Shown here: positions 49,055-64,000 of the stretch, piece by piece
Position numbering within the stretch: position 1 is the first letter of the stretch
Layout of the letters: every line of letters starts with the position of its first letter
IMG/VR virus record: IMGVR_UViG_3300044956_000431
Location: 45,985 to 109,984 of that record
DNA: 64,000 nucleotides
DNA from: a virus
Reading direction: 5' to 3' (one strand)
The notes under the pieces: model-generated
What the model was told of the DNA's origin: nothing
The model's database searches: none
Seen by the model: only the letters and a program-made list of their open reading frames with translations
Program-made: the position numbers and the translations under genes

Positions 49055-52000
49055 TTAGACGGTACTTGATGTTGCAATCTGGCCTGCAGATATCTCACCT
49101 GTGTTCTTGATTCGCACAGGAATGTAGATAAACTCAACAGACTTGACAGGTTCAATAGCGATGTCAACATACAGTTCATTTCTGTCGATACGAGCTGGTG
49201 TGTTGTTTGATTCATCGCAAACTACCAAGTAGTCGTAGATACCACGTTTAGCGACCAAATCATTGAGTAGATTTTGAATGGAGCTAGAAATCTCATCGCG
49301 AGTGATTTGATCGTTGGGTTCAAACACAAAGTTCTTGCCAATGCTGTCTAAACGTGCTCTCAAGAATGCAACCAAACGTGCTACGTTGATACGATCCAGT
49401 GCGCTTGGTGCTGTAGCCTCTGTCTTGTTACCATAGTTCAAGATACCTGATCCAGGCAAGAACGTGATTGGGTTGATAGAGTTTTCATACAACACATCAC
49501 GGATACCTTGACGGGTAGCTGTTGATACAAACTCTCCTGTCTGTGCGTTTACATATCCTAATGCAAATGCATTGTCAACAATACCACGGCGTGTACCAGC
49601 TGGTGCCAACCATGGATAACTGACTTCGTCGCTACGCAAGATAGTACGGATCATCATATGGCTAGGTGGTTGTACCACTGTGGCACCTAAAAGATCTGTG
49701 GTCTGACATGAAGGATAAAAAGTGCCTAGAAATGCATCTGCTGTGACCAGGCCGTCTTCGCTGTCTAACCCCATACCTGCGGCATTGGTAGCCCAGGCAG
49801 TGATAGCATCAGCGCTGTCATCTAGTCGCATTGGTGTGTCACCAATCACAAACGCTGTTTGACCGCGTTCGTTGTTGAGTGCTACCATGTTAGGAATCAG
49901 CTCAGGGTAGTTTGGTGTAGCTATCAAGTTAAACTGGCGTTGTTCTTCGCGCAGTTCCTGATTGCTGTCAATGCTGGACTTCATGGCCATTACCACCATG
50001 GCACGCACTGCTTTACGGCCCATGTAAGGAGCACCGTTGTCTTGCAATCCGCTGGCAGTGACCCATGCATCTGTTACAGTGCCTGTGAATGTAGGATAGT
50101 CAGTGGTGTTGAAATAATCAACTTTGAAGCTTTTGACATTAAATCCTGAACGACGCAAGTTGAATCCCAACATGCCTTCTGGATAGAGACTGTAATCTGG
50201 TGCATCTGGATCCAGATATGAGCTAGACAACAAGCTAGTTATAGTTGGCTTAGGTGCGGTGATAGGGTCTGTGTCTCCATTGGTAGCCCAACGGAAATCT
50301 GCAAACTCCACGCCATTGGGTGTGGTTTGATCTGTATTGTCAAGCAGTACCCATTGATCTGTGCCGTCCAAAGGTTCCCAACGCTTGATTATAGGATACT
50401 GTTCTAAATCACTGATGTCAATCCACAGATCACCGTACACTAGATCAGTGCCGTCAGTCTGTAGAGTAGGAGCAGTCACAGACACAATAGGACCTGTCGG
50501 ATTGGTCAGTGTCAAGTTGAACCCACGTGAATCGTTGTCCACTGTTTTGTAACCTTTCCAGTTGGTTCCATCATTGATCATGATGTCAACTTGGTCAGTG
50601 GCAGAATAGTACCACAAACGACCATCAGCAGGATCTTGATCAGGTGCTGAATCTGATGCTGTATAGGTGAGTGACACCCAGTTGCTCAAGGTCAGTCCAT
50701 TGGCAACATCATCAGGAGTGGTATATTTGACTCCTTCTACTTGGATGTTGAATCCAGCATCAGCAGTTGGTGTACCAACTGTGTCAACTAACACAATACT
50801 ACCGCCCTGTGTATGCTGTATTTGTACAGCACCATCACTGGTAACTCCGGCTGTGGTATTTGCCACATTAGCAGCCAAGAATGCAGTGACAAAGTCTGCG
50901 GCTGTGGTACCGCCCAGAGTGGCAGTCACGGTTGAAGTTAGATTGTTACTGTTCTTGACACTGGCTTGAATAGTGAAAGTATCACCAGGTGTGAATGTGG
51001 GCAATGTGTCATCGCCTGTGACAATAGTTGAACCACTTTGCAGGCGTTCAAAAATCTTCAGCGTAAAAGTATCATCGTCGTTGACGTCATATTGAGCATA
51101 GGTACTGCCAGCAGCGATATTGCGGCCGCCACCAGCTGGATCAAGAGCTTTGTTTGCATACTGATCGTTTTCATAGATAGGACATGTTTGTTGGATGAAC
51201 AAGCTCAGCGTAGAGCTGAACTTCTTGACCACCAGGTTTGCACCCTGATTTACATTGTTAGTCTTGTTCCAAACTGATCCAGATGGGTGAGGCTCAGAAC
51301 TGCTGGATCTCCACTGTGGAACAGTATAGTTTGGACTGGCCTGTAACACAGGTGCCCAGTAGATTTTTGGCGTGATGCCCACGGCAGCCAAAACATCGCC
51401 TGAACCGTCGCGCACATCAAGAATACCGTTACCGTTGTCAGTAGAACTATCGTCTGTGCCTCGGCCATCGATATACAACACCAGTTTGCCACTGACGTTT
51501 TGAGCACTGATACCCGAATCGCTAGGCATATCACTGTTTATAGTTGTAGCTAGCTGTGTAACGTTGGTTCCTGAGAAGTTAATCAGTGTGTCATTGAGGA
51601 AGAATGTACCGGCAGTCAGGGTTGGATTGGTAGCTGTACCAATCACTGATGGCCATGAATTTTTCCAATCATTGCTGCCAACCAGCACCCAAGTGTTGGC
51701 TGCCACAGTGGGATTGCTTTCTGTGTTACCGCCAGTTTTATAATAAACTGGGTTGCTAGAGTTGGTTGCAACCACAGCGTAGTCGCCAATGTTGCCAATG
51801 CTGTCTTTGGGAATACCGCTGTCAAGATCATCAGTGCTGACAAGCACAATAGGTGTTTTCAGTGTGAATGCAGAGTTAGTGAAGCTCCACTCAAAAATGC
51901 CCCATGCTGATTCCAGAGTATCTAGCCAGTAAGTGCCATTGTCTGGACTACCAGTAGGACGTGTTAGACTGGCTGTAAGTTCGCTGAGATCAATGTCGGA

Positions 52001-52333
52001 ACGCTGTACATAGCAACGATTTGATATGCCCAGTGCTGAATAAGCCGCAAGCAATCCATATTCGTTGAGTTCGTAGCCGTTGATGGGCGTGCCTGCTGTG
52101 GTTTGATAAAAGAATGGATTACCAAACGTATTGACCAAATCTCTCTGTGAAGAGATTAAATAAACCTTGCCAGCATTGGCCGCTGTGGTGCCGGCAGCAA
52201 TGCCTACACCGCTACCGCTGATCTTGTTCTGCGCTGTGGCGATCAAGACGAACGGTATTGAATTAGTTGGGGCTGGTAAGTAGTTACTTTCGTCAATGAT
52301 TGTAACTTCTACGCCTGGGGAAACTAGTGCCAT
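49055..52333 (-). CDS. 18: Tail sheath protein, T4 gp18 homologue, unusually long
   Basis: 1092 residues from the ATG at 52333 (MALVSPGVEVTIIDESNYLP); the longer reading to 52450 is rejected as it crosses a promoter. SPGVEVTI and the C-terminal PGSGILNYGNKTEATAP, ARLVAFLRARLDSIGKNFVF and ARIDRNELYVDIAIEPVKSV are conserved sheath blocks. T4 gp18 is 659 residues, so about 430 extra residues lie in the middle; this part is beta-rich with Thr/Asp-rich repeats (TSTVTATLGGTTAADFVTAF). They are likely surface domains on the contractile sheath. A late box and strong Shine-Dalgarno precede it. Confidence 0.93.
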   Translation of the reverse strand: MALVSPGVEVTIIDESNYLPAPTNSIPFVLIATAQNKISGSGVGIAAGTTAANAGKVYLISSQRDLVNTFGNPFFYQTTAGTPINGYELNEYGLLAAYSALGISNRCYVQRSDIDLSELTASLTRPTGSPDNGTYWLDTLESAWGIFEWSFTNSAFTLKTPIVLVSTDDLDSGIPKDSIGNIGDYAVVATNSSNPVYYKTGGNTESNPTVAANTWVLVGSNDWKNSWPSVIGTATNPTLTAGTFFLNDTLINFSGTNVTQLATTINSDMPSDSGISAQNVSGKLVLYIDGRGTDDSSTDNGNGILDVRDGSGDVLAAVGITPKIYWAPVLQASPNYTVPQWRSSSSEPHPSGSVWNKTNNVNQGANLVVKKFSSTLSLFIQQTCPIYENDQYANKALDPAGGGRNIAAGSTYAQYDVNDDDTFTLKIFERLQSGSTIVTGDDTLPTFTPGDTFTIQASVKNSNNLTSTVTATLGGTTAADFVTAFLAANVANTTAGVTSDGAVQIQHTQGGSIVLVDTVGTPTADAGFNIQVEGVKYTTPDDVANGLTLSNWVSLTYTASDSAPDQDPADGRLWYYSATDQVDIMINDGTNWKGYKTVDNDSRGFNLTLTNPTGPIVSVTAPTLQTDGTDLVYGDLWIDISDLEQYPIIKRWEPLDGTDQWVLLDNTDQTTPNGVEFADFRWATNGDTDPITAPKPTITSLLSSSYLDPDAPDYSLYPEGMLGFNLRRSGFNVKSFKVDYFNTTDYPTFTGTVTDAWVTASGLQDNGAPYMGRKAVRAMVVMAMKSSIDSNQELREEQRQFNLIATPNYPELIPNMVALNNERGQTAFVIGDTPMRLDDSADAITAWATNAAGMGLDSEDGLVTADAFLGTFYPSCQTTDLLGATVVQPPSHMMIRTILRSDEVSYPWLAPAGTRRGIVDNAFALGYVNAQTGEFVSTATRQGIRDVLYENSINPITFLPGSGILNYGNKTEATAPSALDRINVARLVAFLRARLDSIGKNFVFEPNDQITRDEISSSIQNLLNDLVAKRGIYDYLVVCDESNNTPARIDRNELYVDIAIEPVKSVEFIYIPVRIKNTGEISAGQIATSSTV

Positions 52334-52365
52334 GTGTCTGTTCCTTCTATAAAAAGTGCTATTCA

Positions 52366-52373
52366 TATTTAGC
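52366..52373 (-). promoter_or_regulatory. T4-late-like promoter box (GCTAAATA) of gp18
   Basis: 32 bp before the gp18 ATG, with AGAAGGAA between as ribosome-binding site. Confidence 0.6.
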
Positions 52374-52425
52374 GGCAGGCACCAAAACCGCTGTCTAACC
52401 TTGCCCTTACCTAAGGTTTTGTAGG

Positions 52426-52433
52426 CGTAAATA
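52426..52433 (+). promoter_or_regulatory. T4-late-like promoter box (CGTAAATA), leaderless type
   Basis: Ends 4 bp before the ATG at 52438 on the plus strand. Confidence 0.55.
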
Positions 52434-52437
52434 CAAC

Positions 52438-52785
52438 ATGACTCGCCCAATGTGCAAGGCCTGTGCCAAGAATCCCACTGCTATCAACTGCTACAGAGAT
52501 GATAAAATCTATTATCGCAGTCGATGTGATGCTTGTATACGCAAAGGACGCAAACAAAAACCAGCTATACCTCGTTGGCAATCAGCTGGTTATAAGAAAA
52601 AAATGATTTGTGATCGTTGTGGATTTAGAGCCAAGAGCACTGCACAAATCCTAGTTTATCACATGGATGGAAATCTCAATAACTCTGATCTACGCAATCT
52701 TAAAAGTATTTGTTTGAACTGCACTGTGGAAGTTACTCGAAGCGATTTGCCTTGGCGTCACGGAGACCTTGAAGAAGATCGTTGA
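52438..52785 (+). CDS. Zinc-ribbon protein beside gp18 (plus strand, leaderless)
   Basis: 115 residues. Four CxxC pairs are visible (CKAC, CDAC, CDRC, CLNC) with His in YHMDGNLNN, the layout of a double zinc ribbon, possibly HNH-like. Similar proteins lie next to gp18 in other T4-like phages. The C terminus is acidic (DLPWRHGDLEEDR). TAAATA ends 4 bp before the ATG. Its last 53 bp overlap the decayed dNMP kinase gene on the other strand. Role unknown. Confidence 0.8.
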   Translation: MTRPMCKACAKNPTAINCYRDDKIYYRSRCDACIRKGRKQKPAIPRWQSAGYKKKMICDRCGFRAKSTAQILVYHMDGNLNNSDLRNLKSICLNCTVEVTRSDLPWRHGDLEEDR

Positions 52786-53379
52786 CCTGGGTATATAGTT
52801 GATCTAATGTGCTGTTGTTATCTAGCACAGCATCAAACTTAGTGTCTACCCAAGCAGTTTTGCTGGCATGGACTTTTTGCTTGATCAACTCCCACTTGGC
52901 TGTTTCTTAACCCTTGAGATTATCTTCTAGCGCAAAATCGTACCATTCGGGCTCGGGTCCTGGCACCACTCTCGGCACAATACCATCTTGATTCCTGATA
53001 ACTTTGATTTTGTTAGGAAACCTGCAGTCCAAAATAACCACGTCATCTTGACTATTACGCAGTTTGTTTTCCAGGCTGGCAATCGAGATATTGTCATGAA
53101 TCCTTTGCGGCATACTTCTGTGCCCCAGTATTGCAGAATCCAGCGAGGAGTTATAGCTTGATTTAAACGCTGTCTCCACCACGTATCTACTTGTTCGCGC
53201 CATTCACGGGCTTGTTTTGTGCGCCCTTCCAGCATGGTTTAATCCCAATCAAACACAGATCTCACAGCATTTTTCAGTGTGTTGACACAGCTTTCACGCC
53301 TAAACTGATATATATTAACCAGGTAGTCTGCAATGGTGTCTTTGCCAGATCCAATGAATCCACAGATTCCAATGATCAT
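52733..53379 (-). pseudogene. 1: Decayed dNMP kinase gene (T4 gp1-like), two stops and a frameshift
   Basis: The start is intact: ATG at 53379, coupled to the exonuclease stop (ATGA), with AAGGAA ahead, and GICGFIGSGKDTIADYL is the P-loop of phage dNMP kinases. The frame then meets an in-frame TAA at 53239-53241 (FDWD stop TMLEGRTKQAREW). It continues to VCRKGF, where one base is missing near 53100 and the frame moves (then HDNISIASLENKLRNS, VVILDCRFPNKIKVI). A second TAA follows at 52907-52909, after LEDNLKG; beyond it the homologous frame stays open to 52733 (ETAKWELIKQKVHASKTAWV). Together these make a gp1-length protein broken three times. Sequencing error or recoding are alternatives. 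Confidence 0.85.
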
Positions 53380-53897
53380 ACCAGTTCCTTTATTTTTAAC
53401 ATTTCTAGAGAGTCGTGTAACAGATCAATCTGCCTACGGCAGTCTTCCAAGGCATGATGACTGGCATGATATTTGTTTAGACCTGGGCAAAGTCCGTATA
53501 CTGTGCGAGCATCACGCACCACATAGTATTTCCAGGGAAGTGCCAACCCAAAGCTCTTGTAAGCATGTTCAAGGATATTCATGTCAAAGGTAGGTCCGTT
53601 GGCCCAGATACGTTTGGAGTGCCAGACAATGCGCCCCAGTTCTTCTAGTGCTTGCGACAGCGGAATACGTCCTTCTGGGTTGAATGCTTCGTCCTTGGCT
53701 GCTAGCGGCTGGGTGGCCCACCAATCAATGGTACCTTTCTCGATGTTGCGACCTGGCTGACTTTCTATATCAACACGAGCATAGTATTGTTGATCAAAAT
53801 ATCCGCGAGAAAATGGGTCAAACGCCTGTGCGGCAATGGTAAGAATACAGGCTTCAGGGCCTGTACCCACAGTTTCAATGTCAATCATTAGGTCCAT
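53376..53897 (-). CDS. dexA: 3'-5' exonuclease, DexA-like
   Basis: 173 residues. MIDIETVG supplies the DxE pair, WANGPTFDMNILEHA the second Asp, and HASHHALEDCRRQID the His and last Asp of the DEDDh exonuclease fold. The match is closest to T4 DexA (227 residues), which degrades single-stranded DNA from 3' ends. A consensus sigma70 promoter 6 bp upstream of the start region drives it, with the broken dNMP kinase gene as second gene of the unit, so this was an early nucleotide-metabolism pair. Confidence 0.85.
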   Translation of the reverse strand: MDLMIDIETVGTGPEACILTIAAQAFDPFSRGYFDQQYYARVDIESQPGRNIEKGTIDWWATQPLAAKDEAFNPEGRIPLSQALEELGRIVWHSKRIWANGPTFDMNILEHAYKSFGLALPWKYYVVRDARTVYGLCPGLNKYHASHHALEDCRRQIDLLHDSLEMLKIKELV

Positions 53898-53902
53898 GCT
53901 GT

Positions 53903-53931
53903 ATTATAGCATGAGCCGACTATGAAGTCAA
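53903..53931 (-). promoter_or_regulatory. Sigma70-type promoter of the exonuclease gene
   Basis: TTGACT - 17 bp - TATAAT on the minus strand. The -10 box ends 5 bp before the annotated ATG at 53897, so the message would be nearly leaderless. Confidence 0.85.
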
Positions 53932-53940
53932 ACAGGAGAT

Positions 53941-54711
53941 TTAACCAATAACAAAGGTCAAAGGCTCGGATCCGTCTACGTATTGTTTGAGCTCTTCCAC
54001 CTTGAGGTCCATTTGCGCCTGTGCTTCGCCTTTGAGTGCGGCACCATTCAGGGTGCTCCCGCCTTGTGGTCCGGCAATCTGGGCAAACTTTTCACGGGCC
54101 TCGCCAATGATCATCTTGCAAGCGGCTACCATGTAATCTCTGATCCATTGATTGATTTGATAGGTGCTGAGCAGAGAAATCTCTGGTTTGAGTTGATAAA
54201 CCCAGAGCAAAATAACTTCGCCTGTGCCTTTGGGATCGCGCATGAACTGTATCTGCTTGGTCACTGGATTGAAGGTATAGTTCAAAAATCCACCAAACAT
54301 ACGGGCAGCCAGTTCCACATACTGTGTGTAAAAATCATATGTGGCTAGGCCACCGGCTGTACTGTAGTTCAACAGATAGGTGTTGAGAGTGTTCGAACTA
54401 AACGGATCAAAACTGGATGAATACGGACCTTGAGAGTTACCTATGGTGCGGCGAAAGGCCTGTCTCACACTATTGACTTCCTGTGGCAAGGTATAGATAT
54501 TGACGTCTTCAATCAGCGTTAAAAAAATATAGCACTCTTCATAGGCATTCTGCGCACGTTGGCGATAAGTGCCTATGGTACGTTGATATGCGGCTTCATA
54601 GTGTGCAGGGTCCAGCTCGAGATCAATGATATTATCGCCCAGAGTCAAGCGCACATATTCAATGAGATTTTGTTTGAGCGTATCTAGTGTTGATTCATTT
54701 TGATCCGGCAT
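53941..54711 (-). CDS. 13: Neck protein, T4 gp13 homologue
   Basis: 256 residues starting MPDQNESTLDTLKQNLIE. The blocks GTYRQRAQNAYEECYIFLTL, EVNSVRQAFRRTIG, YDFYTQYVELAARMFGGFLN and IAGPQGGSTLNGAALKGEAQ are those of gp13 in environmental T4-like phages (T4 gp13 309 residues). gp13 with gp14 forms the neck that joins head and tail. A GGTAAATA box and a GGAG Shine-Dalgarno precede it. Confidence 0.88.
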   Translation of the reverse strand: MPDQNESTLDTLKQNLIEYVRLTLGDNIIDLELDPAHYEAAYQRTIGTYRQRAQNAYEECYIFLTLIEDVNIYTLPQEVNSVRQAFRRTIGNSQGPYSSSFDPFSSNTLNTYLLNYSTAGGLATYDFYTQYVELAARMFGGFLNYTFNPVTKQIQFMRDPKGTGEVILLWVYQLKPEISLLSTYQINQWIRDYMVAACKMIIGEAREKFAQIAGPQGGSTLNGAALKGEAQAQMDLKVEELKQYVDGSEPLTFVIG

Positions 54712-54730
54712 TGGGGACTCCTGTTCCCTG

Positions 54731-54738
54731 TATTTACC
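54731..54738 (-). promoter_or_regulatory. T4-late-like promoter box (GGTAAATA) of gp13
   Basis: 19 bp before the gp13 ATG, overlapping the stop of the preceding early gene. Confidence 0.55.
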
Positions 54739-55909
54739 AGGCTTTGAGTATGATCAAGCTCTCATTACCACGCCCATTGTACTTGACTTCTGTGGCTTTG
54801 ATATCTTTGAAATACTTGCGCTGGGCAGGCTTTCCTCCGGCCAGTAGAGCTTTGAGCTGTTCTGCTGGCTTGCGCAGAGTCTTTTGATTGGTTGTGCCTG
54901 TGTCAAAGCCCACGATGCTGGACCCTTTAACTGAAAAACTGCCAGCGTGTTGATCTGCAACCACATGGATCAGTTTACGTTTTTTGGTGTTGTACAGCCA
55001 GGCTTCTGATGCACCTACCAGTTTGGCCGGAGATTCTGATACGAGCTTAAGCTCGGCGAAATTCTTTAGGAACTTGAATTTGCTGGCTTGCTTTTCCGGG
55101 CTCACTGCTTTCTTGGCACGAGGTTTGCGTTCTACTTTCTTGATTTGTACATAGTTGCCGCAATCCGCGATCACTTGCTCGCTGAACTTTAGAAAGTTCT
55201 TGAGCTGTGTTCTGGTCCATGAGCTGTAACCTTCTACCAACTGAGCATCTTTGCCAGCAATGACTTGTTTAATCTCGGTCGCTCGTTTTTTCCAATGATC
55301 AACGATGGTGCTCACCATTTGCGGCGCAACATTCATACCACGCATCAAAGTGATGGGTTTGTAATCTGCACTCATTCTAGCGCCGGCCAAAATAAAGTCG
55401 TCAAACATACCTTCAAGTTCGCCGGCACATTCTAATACTTTTTCACGCAAGCGATCCTGGATTGTGATGCGGGCAGTTTCTGCTTGTTTTTCGGCCTTGT
55501 CATCAGTTGATGCTTGTTCTTGAGCCGATAGTTTTATAGCTGGTTTGTGTTTTTCAAGCAGGGCACTGACAGAGTTTTTGACAAACAACAGTTCATGTTC
55601 TGTGAGCTCTAATCCCATGATGTTCATGCGGCAGAGCCAACCCAGAGTGCTGGGAACACCCTGTTCTGGCACACTGCGAAATGCTTTGGTGTTTTTATCT
55701 TCGTGACGATTCAACCAATCTGCCACAAACTCCTTGGCTTCTTTCTTGTCCAAATAATAGTTGTACCAGTTAAATGCTCGACCCAGAGTACTGGCTCGGC
55801 ACTCGCCATCGGGTTGAAACTTCCATGCAGGTTCTTCGCCCATGTATTTGGTATCTGCGGCGCGGATATGCAAAGGTTTGGCAGGTTTGAGTGCAGTGGT
55901 AGATTTCAA
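54734..55909 (-). CDS. Early phage protein of unknown function, basic
   Basis: 391 residues. No ATG fits; the TTG at 55909 (then KSTTALKPAKP) has a GGAG Shine-Dalgarno 6-7 bp ahead. The protein is Lys/Ala-rich and helical with a basic centre (KKVERKPRAKKAVSPEKQAS). Stretches such as TLGRAFNWYNYYLDKKEAKE and VEGYSSWTRTQLKNFLKF look conserved in other environmental phages. It is a single early gene with a consensus sigma70 promoter at 55935-55963, placed between late genes gp13 and gp14. It could be a host-takeover or DNA-binding protein; nothing proves this. Confidence 0.7.
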   Translation of the reverse strand: MKSTTALKPAKPLHIRAADTKYMGEEPAWKFQPDGECRASTLGRAFNWYNYYLDKKEAKEFVADWLNRHEDKNTKAFRSVPEQGVPSTLGWLCRMNIMGLELTEHELLFVKNSVSALLEKHKPAIKLSAQEQASTDDKAEKQAETARITIQDRLREKVLECAGELEGMFDDFILAGARMSADYKPITLMRGMNVAPQMVSTIVDHWKKRATEIKQVIAGKDAQLVEGYSSWTRTQLKNFLKFSEQVIADCGNYVQIKKVERKPRAKKAVSPEKQASKFKFLKNFAELKLVSESPAKLVGASEAWLYNTKKRKLIHVVADQHAGSFSVKGSSIVGFDTGTTNQKTLRKPAEQLKALLAGGKPAQRKYFKDIKATEVKYNGRGNESLIILKAW

Positions 55910-55934
55910 AGCGGCTCCATGTTGATAATGTAGT

Positions 55935-55963
55935 ATTTTAGCACATTTGGATTTTCAGGTCAA
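55935..55963 (-). promoter_or_regulatory. Sigma70-type promoter of the unknown early gene
   Basis: TTGACC - 17 bp - TAAAAT on the minus strand, 25 bp before the TTG start at 55909. Confidence 0.8.
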
Positions 55964-55969
55964 CCTACC

Positions 55970-55977
55970 CATAAATA
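55970..55977 (+). promoter_or_regulatory. T4-late-like promoter box (CATAAATA) of gp14, leaderless type
   Basis: Ends 6 bp before the gp14 ATG at 55984. It lies back to back with an early sigma70 promoter on the other strand. Confidence 0.6.
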
Positions 55978-55983
55978 CTAACT

Positions 55984-57309
55984 ATGCCCAGACTCAGTCT
56001 TTATCGCCCAAATCGCCAGAATGATTATAAGTTTTTGGACCGCACCATATCAGAAATGTACACTGTGGGCGGGTTAGACATCTATGTCCACAAGTATCTG
56101 GGATCAAAACCCCACGGTGATGACTCAAGTTCGCAGACTGGTGGTACACAGGATGCCACCCAACCAGCATATAGTTATGAAAATCCACTGTTTGTCGAAG
56201 ATCTATTACTGATTGAAAACAGAGATAGGGTCTACAGCACAGATGTGTACGTCATGCGAGGTATTTACAATCAACAGGACATTGACTTTGACCTTACCCA
56301 GTTTGGCTTGTTCTTAAACAACGATACCTTGTTTATCACCTTCCACTACAACGACATGATAGACACGCTGGGTCGCAAACTGATGTCAGGTGATGTACTG
56401 GAGTTTCCCAATCTCAAAGATTACAATCCTTTGAACGAAGCCTTGCCCAAGGCCTTGCCCAAATACTATGTGATACAAGACACTGCATTTGCCAGCGAGG
56501 GTTTTAGTGCCACGTGGCTGCCGCACCTTTGGCGTGTAAAAGCCACACCATTGGTTGGCGCACAAGAATACAACGACATCCTCAGCAAGCCTTTTGCACA
56601 GGATAACATTTGGGATCCAGGTAACTACTACCCTCGAGCTAGCATAGTGCTAGATGGCAATACCTATTACAAAGCCAAAGATCCTGTGCCAGTGGGCACG
56701 CCTATCACTGATCCACTTTGGGAAGTATACACTCCTGCTACCATACAAGAAAGCATTGGAACACGCAAAAAAGATTATGAACTCAATGATGCTATTTTGG
56801 CACAGGCCGAGTTTGAAGTTCCAAAATCAGGCTACGATGCTGTAAAGTTTTATATAGTACCCACAAACATTGATGGCACACCAGCAGATCCAGCCTCCAA
56901 TCCCACAGTGGACTATACTTTGGTATCTGTAGATAGTACCAATGTCAACTCAGACGCCACTGCTGTGACTCCGCGTGGCGATGGATACACTGCTGGCTAT
57001 TTGTCAGGAGACGGTGTTGCACCCAATGGTTTCACAGTTACACCGGGCATTAACTTTCCTCTCAACGCACAAGAAGGTGACTATTTACTGCGGTTGGATT
57101 ATTTTCCCAATAGACTGTTTCGTTTTTCTGGACGTCGTTGGGTCAAGATTGAAGATGCCGTACGTACCAACCTTACACCCGGGCCAGAAAACACAACTCT
57201 GCGTAGCAGTTTTGTCAACAACACTGCCACAACACCAACAGCAGATCGTGGACCAATACCACAGCGACAAGGTCTTAGCAATATTCTCAAACCTGAGGCG
57301 GATAACTAA
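55984..57309 (+). CDS. 14: Neck protein, T4 gp14 homologue, with extra domain
   Basis: 441 residues (T4 gp14 is 256). The conserved first 210 residues (MPRLSLYRPNRQNDYKF, VGGLDIYVHKYLG, NPLFVEDLLLIENRDR, GLFLNNDTLFITFHYND, TWLPHLWRVKATPL) are typical gp14. After this comes an added part of about 200 residues. Its PGNYYPRASIVLDGNTYYKA ... DPLWEVYT resembles chitin-binding-like (CBM5/12) modules, and the end is Thr/Pro-rich. The addition may be exposed at the neck. gp15 follows by a TAATG overlap. Confidence 0.88.
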   Translation: MPRLSLYRPNRQNDYKFLDRTISEMYTVGGLDIYVHKYLGSKPHGDDSSSQTGGTQDATQPAYSYENPLFVEDLLLIENRDRVYSTDVYVMRGIYNQQDIDFDLTQFGLFLNNDTLFITFHYNDMIDTLGRKLMSGDVLEFPNLKDYNPLNEALPKALPKYYVIQDTAFASEGFSATWLPHLWRVKATPLVGAQEYNDILSKPFAQDNIWDPGNYYPRASIVLDGNTYYKAKDPVPVGTPITDPLWEVYTPATIQESIGTRKKDYELNDAILAQAEFEVPKSGYDAVKFYIVPTNIDGTPADPASNPTVDYTLVSVDSTNVNSDATAVTPRGDGYTAGYLSGDGVAPNGFTVTPGINFPLNAQEGDYLLRLDYFPNRLFRFSGRRWVKIEDAVRTNLTPGPENTTLRSSFVNNTATTPTADRGPIPQRQGLSNILKPEADN

Positions 57310-58694
57310 TGCAACAGTTTTTTTATGATGAGCAGATAAGACGTTTCCTGCTTCAGTTTACTAGAATATTTTCAAACTTTCAGGTAGAGTATGGACGTAA
57401 TGATCAAGGAGTAAAAGGTTTGTTGCGTGTGCCTATTCGCTATGGTGATGCCAGTCGTCAGGCACAGACTGTGTTGCAGAACAACTCAGCCAACACATTG
57501 CCATCAACACCGTTGATGACTTTTTATATCACTGAACTACAATATGCTAGAGATCGAGTGCAAGAGCCTTACTTTGTTGACAAAACCAATGTGCGCCAAC
57601 GCTATTGGGACACAGACACACAAACCTACGAAACCACTCAGGGCAACGCTTTTACTATAGAACGCTTGATGCCTGTGCCTTTCAATCTTGGTATCAAACT
57701 AGATATATGGACTTCAAACACCAATCAGAAGTTCCAGATCTTGGAACAGATTGTTACCTTGTTTAATCCTGCGCTGGAAATACAAAGCACAGACAACTAT
57801 CTAGATTGGACTAGCTTGAGTGTGTGCGAGTTAGAAGCAGTGACCTGGTCATCGCGCACCATTCCACAGGGCACTGAAGACCCCATTGACATAGCGTCAT
57901 TGCAGTTTACTCTGCCAATATGGATATCACCACCTGCTAAAGTCAAAAAACTGGGCGTGGTGCAAAAGATCATTGCCAGTATGTATGACTCAGCTGGTGA
58001 TCTCACTGAAGCAGTGTATGGAGACCTGTTGTTGGGTACCAGACAAAAGTTTACTCCTTACAACTATCAAGTGTTGCTTATAGGCAATCAACTGCAGGTG
58101 CTGGAGCCATCAGCTGTGGTACCAGGCAAGGGCACTATCAACCCTGATACTTCTCCACCCAGCAACGTGATGTGGCATACAGTGGTCAACATGTTTGGTG
58201 ATTTGCAGAACGGCATCAGCCAGATCAGACTTGACAATCCCTATGATGATACTGTAATAGTAGGTACAGTGGCCTATCATCCCGCAGACGACAGATTCTT
58301 GCTGTTCACTGTGGACGAAGATACCATACCTCAAAACACACTGATGCCTGTGAATGCTATCGTAGATCCCCAACGCAACGGTCCTGATTCAGGACTACCT
58401 GCTGCCGCGGCAGGACAACGATATCTATTAGTTGGCGACATAGGTACACCTGACTACACAGCCGTTGCTCCTGCCTGGACTGGTATCAACGGAGAAGTGC
58501 TGTATGCTACTACCAATGACATCATCGAATACGACGGCGAAAAATGGAACATTGTATTTTTGCATACCAATCTCAGCGATGTGCAGTATGTGACCAATCT
58601 GACCACTGGTATACAGTATCGTTGGGCTGATGGCGTGTGGCTCAAGAGCTATGAAGGTTTGTATCCCGAAGGCGAGTGGAGTTTGGTTCTATGA
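57309..58694 (+). CDS. 15: Tail terminator/sheath stabiliser, T4 gp15 homologue, extended
   Basis: 461 residues (T4 gp15 is 272). FFYDEQIRRFLLQFTRIFSN, RVPIRYGDASRQAQT, VQEPYFVDKTNVRQRYWDTD, GNAFTIERLMPVPFNLGIKL and WSSRTIPQGTEDPIDIASLQ are conserved gp15 blocks. The C-terminal 190 residues are extra, with an Ala/Gly-rich linker (SGLPAAAAGQRYLL) and a beta module (NDIIEYDGEKWNIVF). gp15 caps the tail tube and sheath below the neck. It overlaps gp14 (TAATG) and the Nudix gene (ATGA). Confidence 0.88.
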   Translation: MQQFFYDEQIRRFLLQFTRIFSNFQVEYGRNDQGVKGLLRVPIRYGDASRQAQTVLQNNSANTLPSTPLMTFYITELQYARDRVQEPYFVDKTNVRQRYWDTDTQTYETTQGNAFTIERLMPVPFNLGIKLDIWTSNTNQKFQILEQIVTLFNPALEIQSTDNYLDWTSLSVCELEAVTWSSRTIPQGTEDPIDIASLQFTLPIWISPPAKVKKLGVVQKIIASMYDSAGDLTEAVYGDLLLGTRQKFTPYNYQVLLIGNQLQVLEPSAVVPGKGTINPDTSPPSNVMWHTVVNMFGDLQNGISQIRLDNPYDDTVIVGTVAYHPADDRFLLFTVDEDTIPQNTLMPVNAIVDPQRNGPDSGLPAAAAGQRYLLVGDIGTPDYTAVAPAWTGINGEVLYATTNDIIEYDGEKWNIVFLHTNLSDVQYVTNLTTGIQYRWADGVWLKSYEGLYPEGEWSLVL

Positions 58695-59945: not shown

Positions 59946-62900
59946 TTAAACTCGTCCTACAACGACCTCAATCACTCCGTCTTGACCATCAAAGTCTGCT
60001 AAAGCTTTGCCAATGATAGTACCTGCGCGAGCATTATTGTTGGCTCGGGCACGTCCGTCACCGGCAGCAACCATCAAATCACCTTTGCGAATTTGTCCAG
60101 TGACCTTGGTTGGTACACGGCCTTGTAACGCCACAGCAGCAACATAAGCTCCAGTTTGCCCAGAGTTCATTAAGTAGCTAGGGTTGGTAGAAATCACGCC
60201 TGCCACGCTGGTACAATCTGCTTCATTACAGAAAGTAATTTCTTTGGCTCCACCAAAACATACCACAGTGCCGGATTCATAGGCAGCATCTGATTCATAG
60301 TTTTCTGCCAAGTCAGCGTACTGTGCAGATGTAGCTTTGGCAAATATGGTATTGAAGGTATTGATTGATGTACCAATATTGCCCACGCCGTTGGCCTGTC
60401 CGTTTAGTATATCTGCTTTGACTGTCACAGATCCGTTGGCCACTGACACTACATTAGCATTGCCTCCAGCACTGATATTCACTGTTCCAGAGCTCAGTGT
60501 CTGTACATTAGAAGTCCCGTTGGCAATGGCCGTGACGTTGTTGGAGATCAATGTGCCTGGTGTGGTGCCATCTGGACCAAAAAATGCCAATGTATTTCCA
60601 GTGGTATTCTTCAGTACGATGTTACCTAACGTGATTGAGTTACCACCAAAATATCCATCTTTCCAACGCAGACTTGAACTTCCCAGATCGTAGGTCACAT
60701 TGGCAGTGGGCAACAGATTACCGGTAGCTTGGATATAATTGTCGCTGTCAGTTACTTCAATCATAGCCGAACCGTTGGCATTGGTAAGAACTCTTACTGT
60801 AGTTGTAGTTGTAATTTCACGAACTTCAATCAAGTCACCTATAGCAGGAGCTTCTGTAAATGTTAATGTTGTACCTTCTATCGCATAGGCTGTAGCAGGA
60901 ACCTGCACAATACCGTTGATAGAAACCAAACAGCTGAGGGTAGTATAGCCCGAGTTGATCGTAAACTCTGTTGTGCTTCCATCACCATTGAATGTCTCAC
61001 TTTGAATTAATGTAAAGACAGTATCTGTGGACCTCCACTGGTCACCATTATAGAACTCTAGAGATGATGTTGAGGTATTGAAACGCACCATACCACTAAC
61101 AGGTGTGTTCGGACGTTGTGCAGTATTACCAGCTGGTGCTAATATAGAAGTGTTAGAGTTAAATGATACAAGAGCACCTGTGGTTTGAGTTGAACTGCCA
61201 AAACTGATTGTTCCAGTTCCAGCATCAACGTACATTAAGTTAGCAGTGGTATCGCCGTTAACTGCAAAATCAGTATCTGAATTATCGCTGTTAACTGTAA
61301 CACGACCAGTGACGCTGATAATATTTGACGTTGTTAAATTACCAACATCGACTTGTAATCCTTGTTCAGTTACCTGTGCTATCACATCCGCAGCATCAGT
61401 GCCACCAACCATAAGCTGTATGGTCTTGCCTGCAGTTTCTGGGTTAAGAATCAAATTTCCGCCATGATTATGAACGTATGAATCATTTGGTCCATAGCCT
61501 GCATAGCTTGGGTCATTGAATGTACTGGAGTTGATACCTAAGTTTACATAAAAGTTTGAATCGTCTCCGTTGTCTGCTGTGGCAATATAGTCTGTTGATG
61601 CGGCTGTTCCGTTGTTAATATTTTGAAAGTTAAGTTGGCTGTATGAATTAACGTTACCAGCAAACTGCATGACAACGTTTGATCCCAACTGTGTAAATCC
61701 TTGAATACCTGCAAACGCCGCATTATTACCTGTGATTGTATTACCCAAGAATATAGCAGAGTTCGCATTCACTACACCAGTTGTGGCATTCAAGTTACCT
61801 AGTACATCTACGTTGCCTGTAAAGTTACCAGTTGCGGCTGCTACTTGACTGACGGTGTTTAAGTTTCCACCAGTGATATTGCCAGTGGCAAAAATTTGGC
61901 CCGAAGCGGAAATGTTTGCTAATGTGACGTTGCCTACAAGAGTTGTTGTGCCATTGACTGTTAAGTTACCACCAGTGATATTGCCAATGGCATCGATAGT
62001 GGTTGCAGCCGAAATAGCTGCATTGGATATTAAGTTTCCACCAGTAATATTGCCAGTGGCATTGATAGTGGTTGCAGCCGAAATAGCCGCATTGGATACT
62101 AAGTTTCCACCAGTGATGTCACCAGTGGCAAAGATAGCAGTAGCTGCAGAAATATTAGCGTTGGATACTAAGTTTCCACCAGTGATGTCACCAGTGGCAT
62201 TGATAGTGGTTGCAGCCGAAATAGCCGCATCGGATACTAAGTTTCCACCAGTGATGTCACCAACTACTGTCAGTGCATCTGTTGTGGCATTGTAGGTCAT
62301 ACCAGCATCGCCAGCAATGAGACCGTTGTCGTTGTACATGACCTGGGTGTTAGATCCAGGTGCTACAAAGTTGCCAGCTATATTTGCAGTAGCTGTTATG
62401 TTGCCTGTTGCAAAAACATTACCTGCTTGCAGTGTTCCAAAGCCGTTGACTGTGATCACATCATTGGCTATGCCAACACTATCTGCAATGATCATGTTAC
62501 CGGTTGAGTTGTCAAAACCCACGAATGCGTTGCCTGGACCAGTGGTGAAGTACGTCAATAACGTACCACGGTCTTTACCGTCGTTGCTGACTAGTGCATT
62601 ACCGTTGGCGCCGCCACCTAGTTGGATGATGGGATCTTCAACACGCAAGTCGTCAACGTTGATGTAGGTCAAATTGCCTTGAACTGCTAAGTTGCCGGCA
62701 ATCAAAGCATCACCGTTGATACTTAGGTTCCCGCCTTGAATCAGGCTGTTTGATATGATATTACCGCCAGTGATGTTTCCTGTAGCGGAAACTGTGGTTC
62801 CAAAACTACCAAGTCCTGTGGCAACAACGTTGGTTACGTTAATGTCGCCGCTTACTTGAAGATTGTCAAACACACCATCATTGGCTATGATATTGCCGCC

Positions 62901-64000
62901 ACTAATATTGCCAACAGCGTCAATTCTTCCGTTGGTTGAAATGTTGCCACCAGCTATGTTACCTGTTACATTTAATGCACTGGTTATATTACCACTGAGA
63001 CTAGATGTTCCTGTTACCTCTAGTGTACCAATGTCTGCTTTACCAGCAGTGGTTACGTTACCACCAGTGATATTGCCAGTGGCATTGATAGTGGTTGCAG
63101 CCGAAATAGCCGCATTGGATACTAAGTTTCCACCAGTGATGTCACCAGTGGCAAAGATAGCAGTGGCTGCAGAAATATTAGCGTTGGATACTAAGTTTCC
63201 ACCAGTGATGTCACCAGTGGCAAAAATTTGGCCCGAAGCGGAAATGTTTGCTAATGTGACGTTGCCTACAAGATTTGTTGTGCCATTGACTGTTAAGTTA
63301 CCACCAGTGATATTGCCAATGGCATCGATAGTGGTTGCAGCCGAAATAGCTGCATTGGATATTAAGTTTCCACCAGTAATATTGCCAGTGGCATTGATAG
63401 TGGTTGCAGCCGAAATAGCCGCATTGGATACTAAGTTTCCACCAGTGATGTCACCAGTGGCATTGATAGTGGTTGCAGCCGAAATAGCCGCATTGGATAC
63501 TAAGTTTCCACCAGTGATGTCACCAGTGGCAAAAATAGCAGTGGCTGCAGAAATGTTAGCGTTGGATACTAAGTTTCCACCAGTGATGTTACCAGTAGCA
63601 AAAATTTGGCCCGAAGCGGAAATGTTTGCTAATGTGACGTTGCCTACAAGATTTGTTGTGCCATTGACTGTTAAGTTACCACCAATATTGGCATTGTTGG
63701 TATGGAAGTCAGCATAGCTGGCAATGGTAACTGTGCTGGCATTTGTTGTATCGTTGGTGAAAACTGTGACAAATTCACCTACTGATTCGTCCCACACAAA
63801 AGCAATATTTTGGCTGGCGCCACGTTCGCCAATGAAGCCAATGTCTACACTTGGAGCGCCTGTTTGGTCAGCTGCCAAATAAAGAATAGGATCTTCAATA
63901 ACAACACTGACAGTGTCTATGGTTGTGGTTTGACCATTGACTGTAAGGTTGCCTGTAACAGTAAGGTCTGATCCGTAGACCAGGCTGTTAGCAATCTTTC
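59946..64000 (-). CDS. Tail-fibre-like protein with 22-residue repeats, 5' end outside window
   Basis: At least 1351 residues; the frame is open to the right edge (VYGSDLTVTGNLTVNGQTTT), so the true start lies beyond 64000. Two VEDPI modules (VVIEDPILYLAADQTG near 63880, DDLRVEDPIIQLGGG near 62640) are common in phage fibres. Two blocks of 22-residue repeats (DITGGNLVSNAAISAATTIN type) follow. The C terminus (AQYADLAENYESDAAYESGT, TNPSYLMNSGQTG, GTIIGKALADFDGQDGVIEV) matches the end domain of fibre-like proteins of environmental T4-like phages. It probably takes part in host recognition. Confidence 0.85.
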   Translation of the reverse strand, partial: KIANSLVYGSDLTVTGNLTVNGQTTTIDTVSVVIEDPILYLAADQTGAPSVDIGFIGERGASQNIAFVWDESVGEFVTVFTNDTTNASTVTIASYADFHTNNANIGGNLTVNGTTNLVGNVTLANISASGQIFATGNITGGNLVSNANISAATAIFATGDITGGNLVSNAAISAATTINATGDITGGNLVSNAAISAATTINATGNITGGNLISNAAISAATTIDAIGNITGGNLTVNGTTNLVGNVTLANISASGQIFATGDITGGNLVSNANISAATAIFATGDITGGNLVSNAAISAATTINATGNITGGNVTTAGKADIGTLEVTGTSSLSGNITSALNVTGNIAGGNISTNGRIDAVGNISGGNIIANDGVFDNLQVSGDINVTNVVATGLGSFGTTVSATGNITGGNIISNSLIQGGNLSINGDALIAGNLAVQGNLTYINVDDLRVEDPIIQLGGGANGNALVSNDGKDRGTLLTYFTTGPGNAFVGFDNSTGNMIIADSVGIANDVITVNGFGTLQAGNVFATGNITATANIAGNFVAPGSNTQVMYNDNGLIAGDAGMTYNATTDALTVVGDITGGNLVSDAAISAATTINATGDITGGNLVSNANISAATAIFATGDITGGNLVSNAAISAATTINATGNITGGNLISNAAISAATTIDAIGNITGGNLTVNGTTTLVGNVTLANISASGQIFATGNITGGNLNTVSQVAAATGNFTGNVDVLGNLNATTGVVNANSAIFLGNTITGNNAAFAGIQGFTQLGSNVVMQFAGNVNSYSQLNFQNINNGTAASTDYIATADNGDDSNFYVNLGINSSTFNDPSYAGYGPNDSYVHNHGGNLILNPETAGKTIQLMVGGTDAADVIAQVTEQGLQVDVGNLTTSNIISVTGRVTVNSDNSDTDFAVNGDTTANLMYVDAGTGTISFGSSTQTTGALVSFNSNTSILAPAGNTAQRPNTPVSGMVRFNTSTSSLEFYNGDQWRSTDTVFTLIQSETFNGDGSTTEFTINSGYTTLSCLVSINGIVQVPATAYAIEGTTLTFTEAPAIGDLIEVREITTTTTVRVLTNANGSAMIEVTDSDNYIQATGNLLPTANVTYDLGSSSLRWKDGYFGGNSITLGNIVLKNTTGNTLAFFGPDGTTPGTLISNNVTAIANGTSNVQTLSSGTVNISAGGNANVVSVANGSVTVKADILNGQANGVGNIGTSINTFNTIFAKATSAQYADLAENYESDAAYESGTVVCFGGAKEITFCNEADCTSVAGVISTNPSYLMNSGQTGAYVAAVALQGRVPTKVTGQIRKGDLMVAAGDGRARANNNARAGTIIGKALADFDGQDGVIEVVVGRV
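61855..62260 (-). repeat. Coding repeat block 2 (66-bp units) in the tail-fibre gene
   Basis: About six 66-bp units of the GNLVSNAAISAATTINATGD type lie between the second and third fibre modules. They are near-identical in DNA to units in block 1 at 63055-63690, including a long copied run around the LVGNVTLANISASGQIFATG part. Confidence 0.85.
63055..63690 (-). repeat. Coding repeat block 1 (66-bp units) in the tail-fibre gene
   Basis: About nine 66-bp units in tandem, encoding the same 22-residue motif with two inserted LVGNVTLANISASGQIFATG segments. Near identity between units and with block 2 implies recent duplication or gene conversion. Confidence 0.88.

Follow-up and report, generated by a model that had tools for sequence, protein, structure and literature searches.

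The window, a stretch of 64,000 nucleotides that comprises bases 45985-109984 of the 109,984-base IMG/VR virus record IMGVR_UViG_3300044956_000431, very probably harbors a lineage-specific pseudogene of the only recognised dNMP kinase of this phage, which belongs to the T4 gp1 family. The gene is regarded as a pseudogene because the same lesions are present in a second contig, because the gene is open in nearly all readable related loci, and because the constraint on the protein has been lost.

The kinase relict and its family

The T4 gp1-type dNMP kinase relict is located on the minus strand (52733..53379) and was delineated by stops, loss of frame, family matches and comparison with relatives. 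It starts with an ATG at 53379-53377, and an open N-terminal piece of 46 codons follows (53242..53379, minus strand; reading frame and profile match), in which the P-loop is intact and reads GFIGSGKDT, in agreement with the pattern GxxxxGKDT. In-frame reading revealed a first premature stop, TAA, at 53239..53241 (minus strand). Further downstream, reading and alignment uncovered a one-base contraction (53093..53100, minus strand), with which the frame is lost just past the residues RKGF (53100-53098), and from 53095 the homology continues in a frame shifted by one. A second in-frame premature TAA is found at 52907..52909 (minus strand), and the final part is open down to a TAA at 52735-52733. 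With two stops and a loss of frame, the window copy lacks an uninterrupted reading frame of about 200-240 codons. This minus-strand reading from 53379 to 52733 reproduced the original prediction, which had described a P-loop followed by a TAA at 53239, a one-base loss near 53100 at RKGF, and a second TAA at 52907 with an open homologous frame to 52733. The decay extends beyond what had been described, as it includes private changes at invariant positions and a 12-nt deletion at approximately 52890..52906 (minus strand), which was detected by alignment with L003 and L004, the two closest relatives shown, and the placement of which near 52900 is alignment-dependent.

Gp1-type kinases convert dNMPs to dNDPs. 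Four pieces of the relict each matched the profile phrog_139 (deoxynucleoside monophosphate kinase) separately, with E-values of 9.8e-12, 0.0012, 0.00051 and 0.0066 at profile positions 84-129, 136-166, 167-217 and 225-264, and because the four matches are independent and collinear, they are not due to chance. When an intact relative encoded on a 344-kb contig was used as tblastn query, it matched the window at 53379-53098 with 76% and at 53101-52736 with 61%, in two frames and with two stops. The intact relative L003 matched phrog_139 at 1.8e-54; its match to PF21448, at 7.5e-14, exceeded the cut-off of this family, whereas the window pieces alone stayed below it. A profile of 14 intact relatives matched the T4 dNMP kinase 1DEK with an E-value of 1e-7, and 1DEK/1DEL were the only PDB matches of this profile at E up to 0.01. 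Both the phrog_139 pieces and the match to 1DEK agree with the gp1-type identity that had been proposed, and, judged from homology, the relict is a T4 gp1-family dNMP kinase with a predicted activity on dNMPs. The window was also scanned for Rfam families and tRNAs, and no matches were obtained.

Related loci and a second assembly

For a survey of the gene in related viruses, 152 IMG/VR loci were collected with two scans, which used the exonuclease encoded next to the kinase and a kinase piece as queries. Loci from the kinase-piece scan were confirmed by tblastn, which did not need an open frame, and since this query began in a wrong-frame stretch, the sensitivity was uneven. A kinase was counted as open when it had at least 180 codons. 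The gene was open in 133 loci and broken in 2, ran off the contig in 9, and had no match to its start in 8. The last group consists of L109 and L124, which are cut on the 5' side, L013 and L018, which contain a different kinase, and L015, L031, L069 and L070. L098 and L146, in which a codon other than a start codon aligns with the gene start, were nevertheless counted as open, and three contigs had been fetched twice (L002/L082, L026/L083 and L019/L095). The number of distinct open kinase sequences was 103, after the broken sequence and L001, the clip of the window itself, had been subtracted from 105 listed sequences. The comparison with intact gp1 genes of sister phages, which the original prediction had called for, thus showed that 133 of the 135 loci with a fully readable gene have it open and that it is broken in the window lineage.

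Both broken loci represent a second contig, IMGVR_UViG_3300044957_000713, in which the broken kinase is identical to that of the window (1501/1501 bases match across the locus). The two contigs have 3 mismatches in the 40,000 bases compared. The disabling lesions are therefore common to separate assemblies, which may derive from related samples. In addition, the window was compared with ORFs from the end of the 344-kb relative that encode 100 aa or more; 56 of 100 ORFs matched the window, which was covered above about 22,500. Antisense shadow ORFs aside, the kinase was the only gene among the matching ORFs in which internal stops or a change of frame occurred. Ten further ORFs were flagged, which by our reading of the flags are antisense to longer matching ORFs, and three of the ten lie in the repetitive tail-protein region. 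The large tail-protein ORF at 59946-63998 has internal repeats at about 61800-63700, visible as many partial self-matches. An alternative genetic code was ruled out, because the window genes that match the 344-kb relative do not have internal stops (antisense shadow ORFs aside).

These results bear on two explanations in which the gene would be functional. One-base contractions in short runs are a common error type, and the contraction at RKGF is of this kind, so that an intact gene might merely look broken due to sequencing or assembly errors. This is very improbable: a base-calling slip was set aside because the second contig has the identical broken gene, the kinase alone is broken among the compared ORFs, and errors could not produce changes at 16 invariant sites plus a 12-nt deletion. 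Recoding could also be envisaged, as the relict frame is largely readable past each lesion, and read-through of the stops together with a frameshift would yield a full-length kinase. However, two TAA read-throughs and a frameshift would be required within one gene of 645 nt, none of the lesions occurs in any complete-gene relative outside the second contig, no other stop read-through was seen among the genes compared with the 344-kb relative, and the protein constraint at invariant sites is gone, so that the chance of recoding is close to negligible.

Loss of protein constraint

To quantify the constraint, a codon alignment of ten sequences was used, which comprised the window and nine intact loci that had been picked for completeness and close exonucleases (L003, L004, L005, L007, L008, L009, L022, L024 and L032). 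The window kinase has private amino-acid changes at 16 of 143 columns that are invariant in the nine intact relatives. The respective numbers for the intact relatives are 0, 0, 3, 0, 0, 0, 4, 1 and 5 of 127-132 invariant columns, whereby close pairs such as L003/L004 push their own counts to zero. The window's own neighbouring genes are a fairer control, as they are on the same branch; they have private changes at 3/108 (exonuclease), 5/186 (head-tail protein), 11/206 (391-aa protein, seven sequences only) and 2/72 columns (HNH-like protein). Fisher tests gave p = 0.001 for the kinase versus the pooled neighbours (16/143 vs 21/572) and p = 4e-9 versus the pooled relatives, and these values are only a guide, because the relatives do not represent independent data points and the branch of the window is long. 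Differences at codon position 2 amounted to 0.13-0.17 for the kinase vs 0.05-0.08 for the exonuclease. The constraint is thus relaxed in comparison with both the intact relatives and the neighbouring genes. The pairwise dN/dS values of the window kinase versus its relatives (0.12-0.23) were hardly above those of intact-relative pairs (0.08-0.19), presumably because the sequences had mostly diverged before the gene was lost.

Read from this alignment, the kinase appears to have died on the branch of the window well after the split from the relatives, and yet its drift began some time ago, because the 12-nt deletion and the 16/143 private changes have accumulated besides the three lesions. It had been described as a recent pseudogene. 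The status as a pseudogene is upheld by the lesions in the second contig, the 133/135 open loci and the lost constraint, while its age had been understated, as the relict is still alignable but has drifted.

Upstream exonuclease and promoter

The kinase start is overlapped by 4 nt by an intact exonuclease gene on the same strand (53376..53897, minus strand; reading frame and profile match, PF16473 and phrog_255), and the kinase ATG still overlaps the exonuclease stop in the motif ATGA. The exonuclease-kinase pair is preceded by a sigma-70-like promoter (53903..53931, minus strand; 11/12 matches), which consists of TTGACT, a spacer of 17 nt and TATAAT with a TG before the -10 element, and which ends 5 bases from the exonuclease ATG (53897). 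Among 20 relatives inspected, TATAAT is present at equal distance in L003, L004, L005, L007, L008 and L009 and is weaker in several others. The promoter position predicts that an early transcript would be leaderless or nearly leaderless. The ATGA overlap and the promoter are in line with the earlier statement that the operon start is intact. At the exonuclease-kinase junction, L003, L005 and L008 have an extra gene of 231-233 aa and L009 one of 361 aa exactly between the two genes, and the window, L004 and L007 are devoid of it; the junction looks like an insertion spot.

The retained start, overlap and promoter might indicate that the 46-codon P-loop piece is still made and is useful as a short peptide, and the first 23 residues (P-loop region) have no private changes, with few sites involved. 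Nevertheless, five private changes affect invariant sites at residues 24 to 44, and 46 residues would not form the kinase fold, so that a selected peptide is hardly credible.

Convergent gene at the 3' end

An intact convergent gene on the plus strand (52438..52785; reading frame, profile match and alignment) encodes a weakly HNH-like protein of 115 aa and overlaps the 3' end of the kinase by 53 nt (52733..52785, as seen from reading frames and alignment). This gene is conserved between the kinase and the tail sheath genes. The 3' overlap was found in 129 of 130 loci, had a length of at least 30 nt in 118 and a median of 53; the lone non-overlapping locus belongs to the broken contig, for which the premature stop was taken as the gene end. 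The 53 overlapping bases of the window are 92-94% identical to those of four relatives, in contrast to 70-74% for the rest of the dead kinase. When intact relatives are compared with each other, the contrast is less marked (0.75-0.83 for the rest vs 0.81-0.92 for the overlap; 0.96 vs 0.98 in a close pair), and therefore the kinase tail is held by the convergent gene. The persistence of the whole relict may at least partly be due to the double use of its 3' end as the 3' end of this intact gene.

Possible compensation of the lost function

The minus-strand transcript has the kinase as its final gene ahead of the convergent gene, so that the loss of the kinase would be tolerated without a polar effect. 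A takeover of its function by the host or by another phage gene, as suggested originally, is plausible. Host nucleoside-monophosphate kinases could carry dTMP and other dNMPs on to the diphosphates, and host nucleotide kinases are the most likely compensation for the lost phage kinase. In the window lineage the host would then have to perform the dTMP-to-dTDP step, provided that no substitute is encoded in the unseen part of the genome. About two thirds of the genome may be unseen, because the record has 110 kb and four large relatives have 342-353 kb. The relict aside, searches of the 110-kb record for a further dNMP kinase, a thymidylate kinase or a kinase of the 168-aa type yielded nothing, and ThyX (PF02511) had no match there. 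ThyX is present in the four large relatives and would make their dTMP; neither PF02223 (thymidylate kinase) nor PF00303 (thymidylate synthase) matched the record or these relatives.

A variant of the pseudogene reading is that the loss followed a replacement by a phage kinase encoded in the unsequenced part of the genome. L013 (4516-5022) and L018 (4139-4642), the adjoining exonuclease of which is 84% identical to that of the window, have a divergent kinase of 168 aa in the slot between the exonuclease and the HNH-like gene (phrog_38514, E 7.1e-53; phrog_139, E 4.6e-14), and therefore kinase exchange happens in this group. Together with the size of the possibly unseen part, this makes a replacement conceivable, but it is an unlikely course of events, since the 110-kb record lacks any such kinase and each of the four large relatives has only one full phrog_139 match, the gp1 gene. 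Three of these four have a further weak phrog_139 match, which is confined to the P-loop. As dNMP kinases, the extra matches in G002 and G004 were ruled out, because they lie in ORFs of 264-267 aa that appear unlike dNMP kinases, and which, judged from their motifs, presumably resemble a kinase/nucleotidyltransferase fusion. It is doubtful that the locus is a kinase-turnover slot, in which gp1 was lost after a different kinase had been gained elsewhere and the relict was kept only for its tail in the HNH-like gene.

Taken together, the pseudogene is a real but ordinary case of a lost phage gene, and it does not indicate a new mechanism. Phage genomes are compact and nearly all relatives keep the gene, and a natural knock-out in decay is therefore a hint that, with at least one kind of host, the phage can do without the kinase. 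On a small scale, it allows one to test when phages depend on the nucleotide kinases of the host.

Comparison with known systems

No report of a broken phage dNMP kinase was found in the literature searched, for which partial texts were available, and this is not proof that such a case is unreported. A megablast search with 50000-58000 against named phages gave no matches. When the intact gene of L032 was used as query, the nearest named relative was that of Sinorhizobium phage Phosso (53% identity), and dNMP kinases of jumbo phages of the 121Q/RaK2/GAP32/CBB type had 44-48% identity. In the Phosso and jumbo-phage records one place covers 90-95% of the query, in contrast to the broken copy of the window. 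Gp1 of bacteriophage T4 (1DEK/1DEL) is of the same family by profile and has the P-loop with GKDT in common with the relict; it has 241 aa and the intact relatives 202-232 aa, whereas the window copy is broken. According to PMC2993671, gp1 of T4 and the T-even phages also serves hydroxymethyl-dCTP synthesis. The closest parallel is offered by Pseudomonas putida KT2440, in which, as stated in PMC10653934, the T4-like dNMP kinase PP_1964 covers for a disrupted tmk. As may also hold for the window lineage, a nucleotide-kinase gene is dead where another kinase carries its reaction. The roles are reversed, however: in P. putida it is the host that has the broken gene, with a phage-type kinase as the replacement, whereas in the window the phage gene is broken and its replacement is only presumed.
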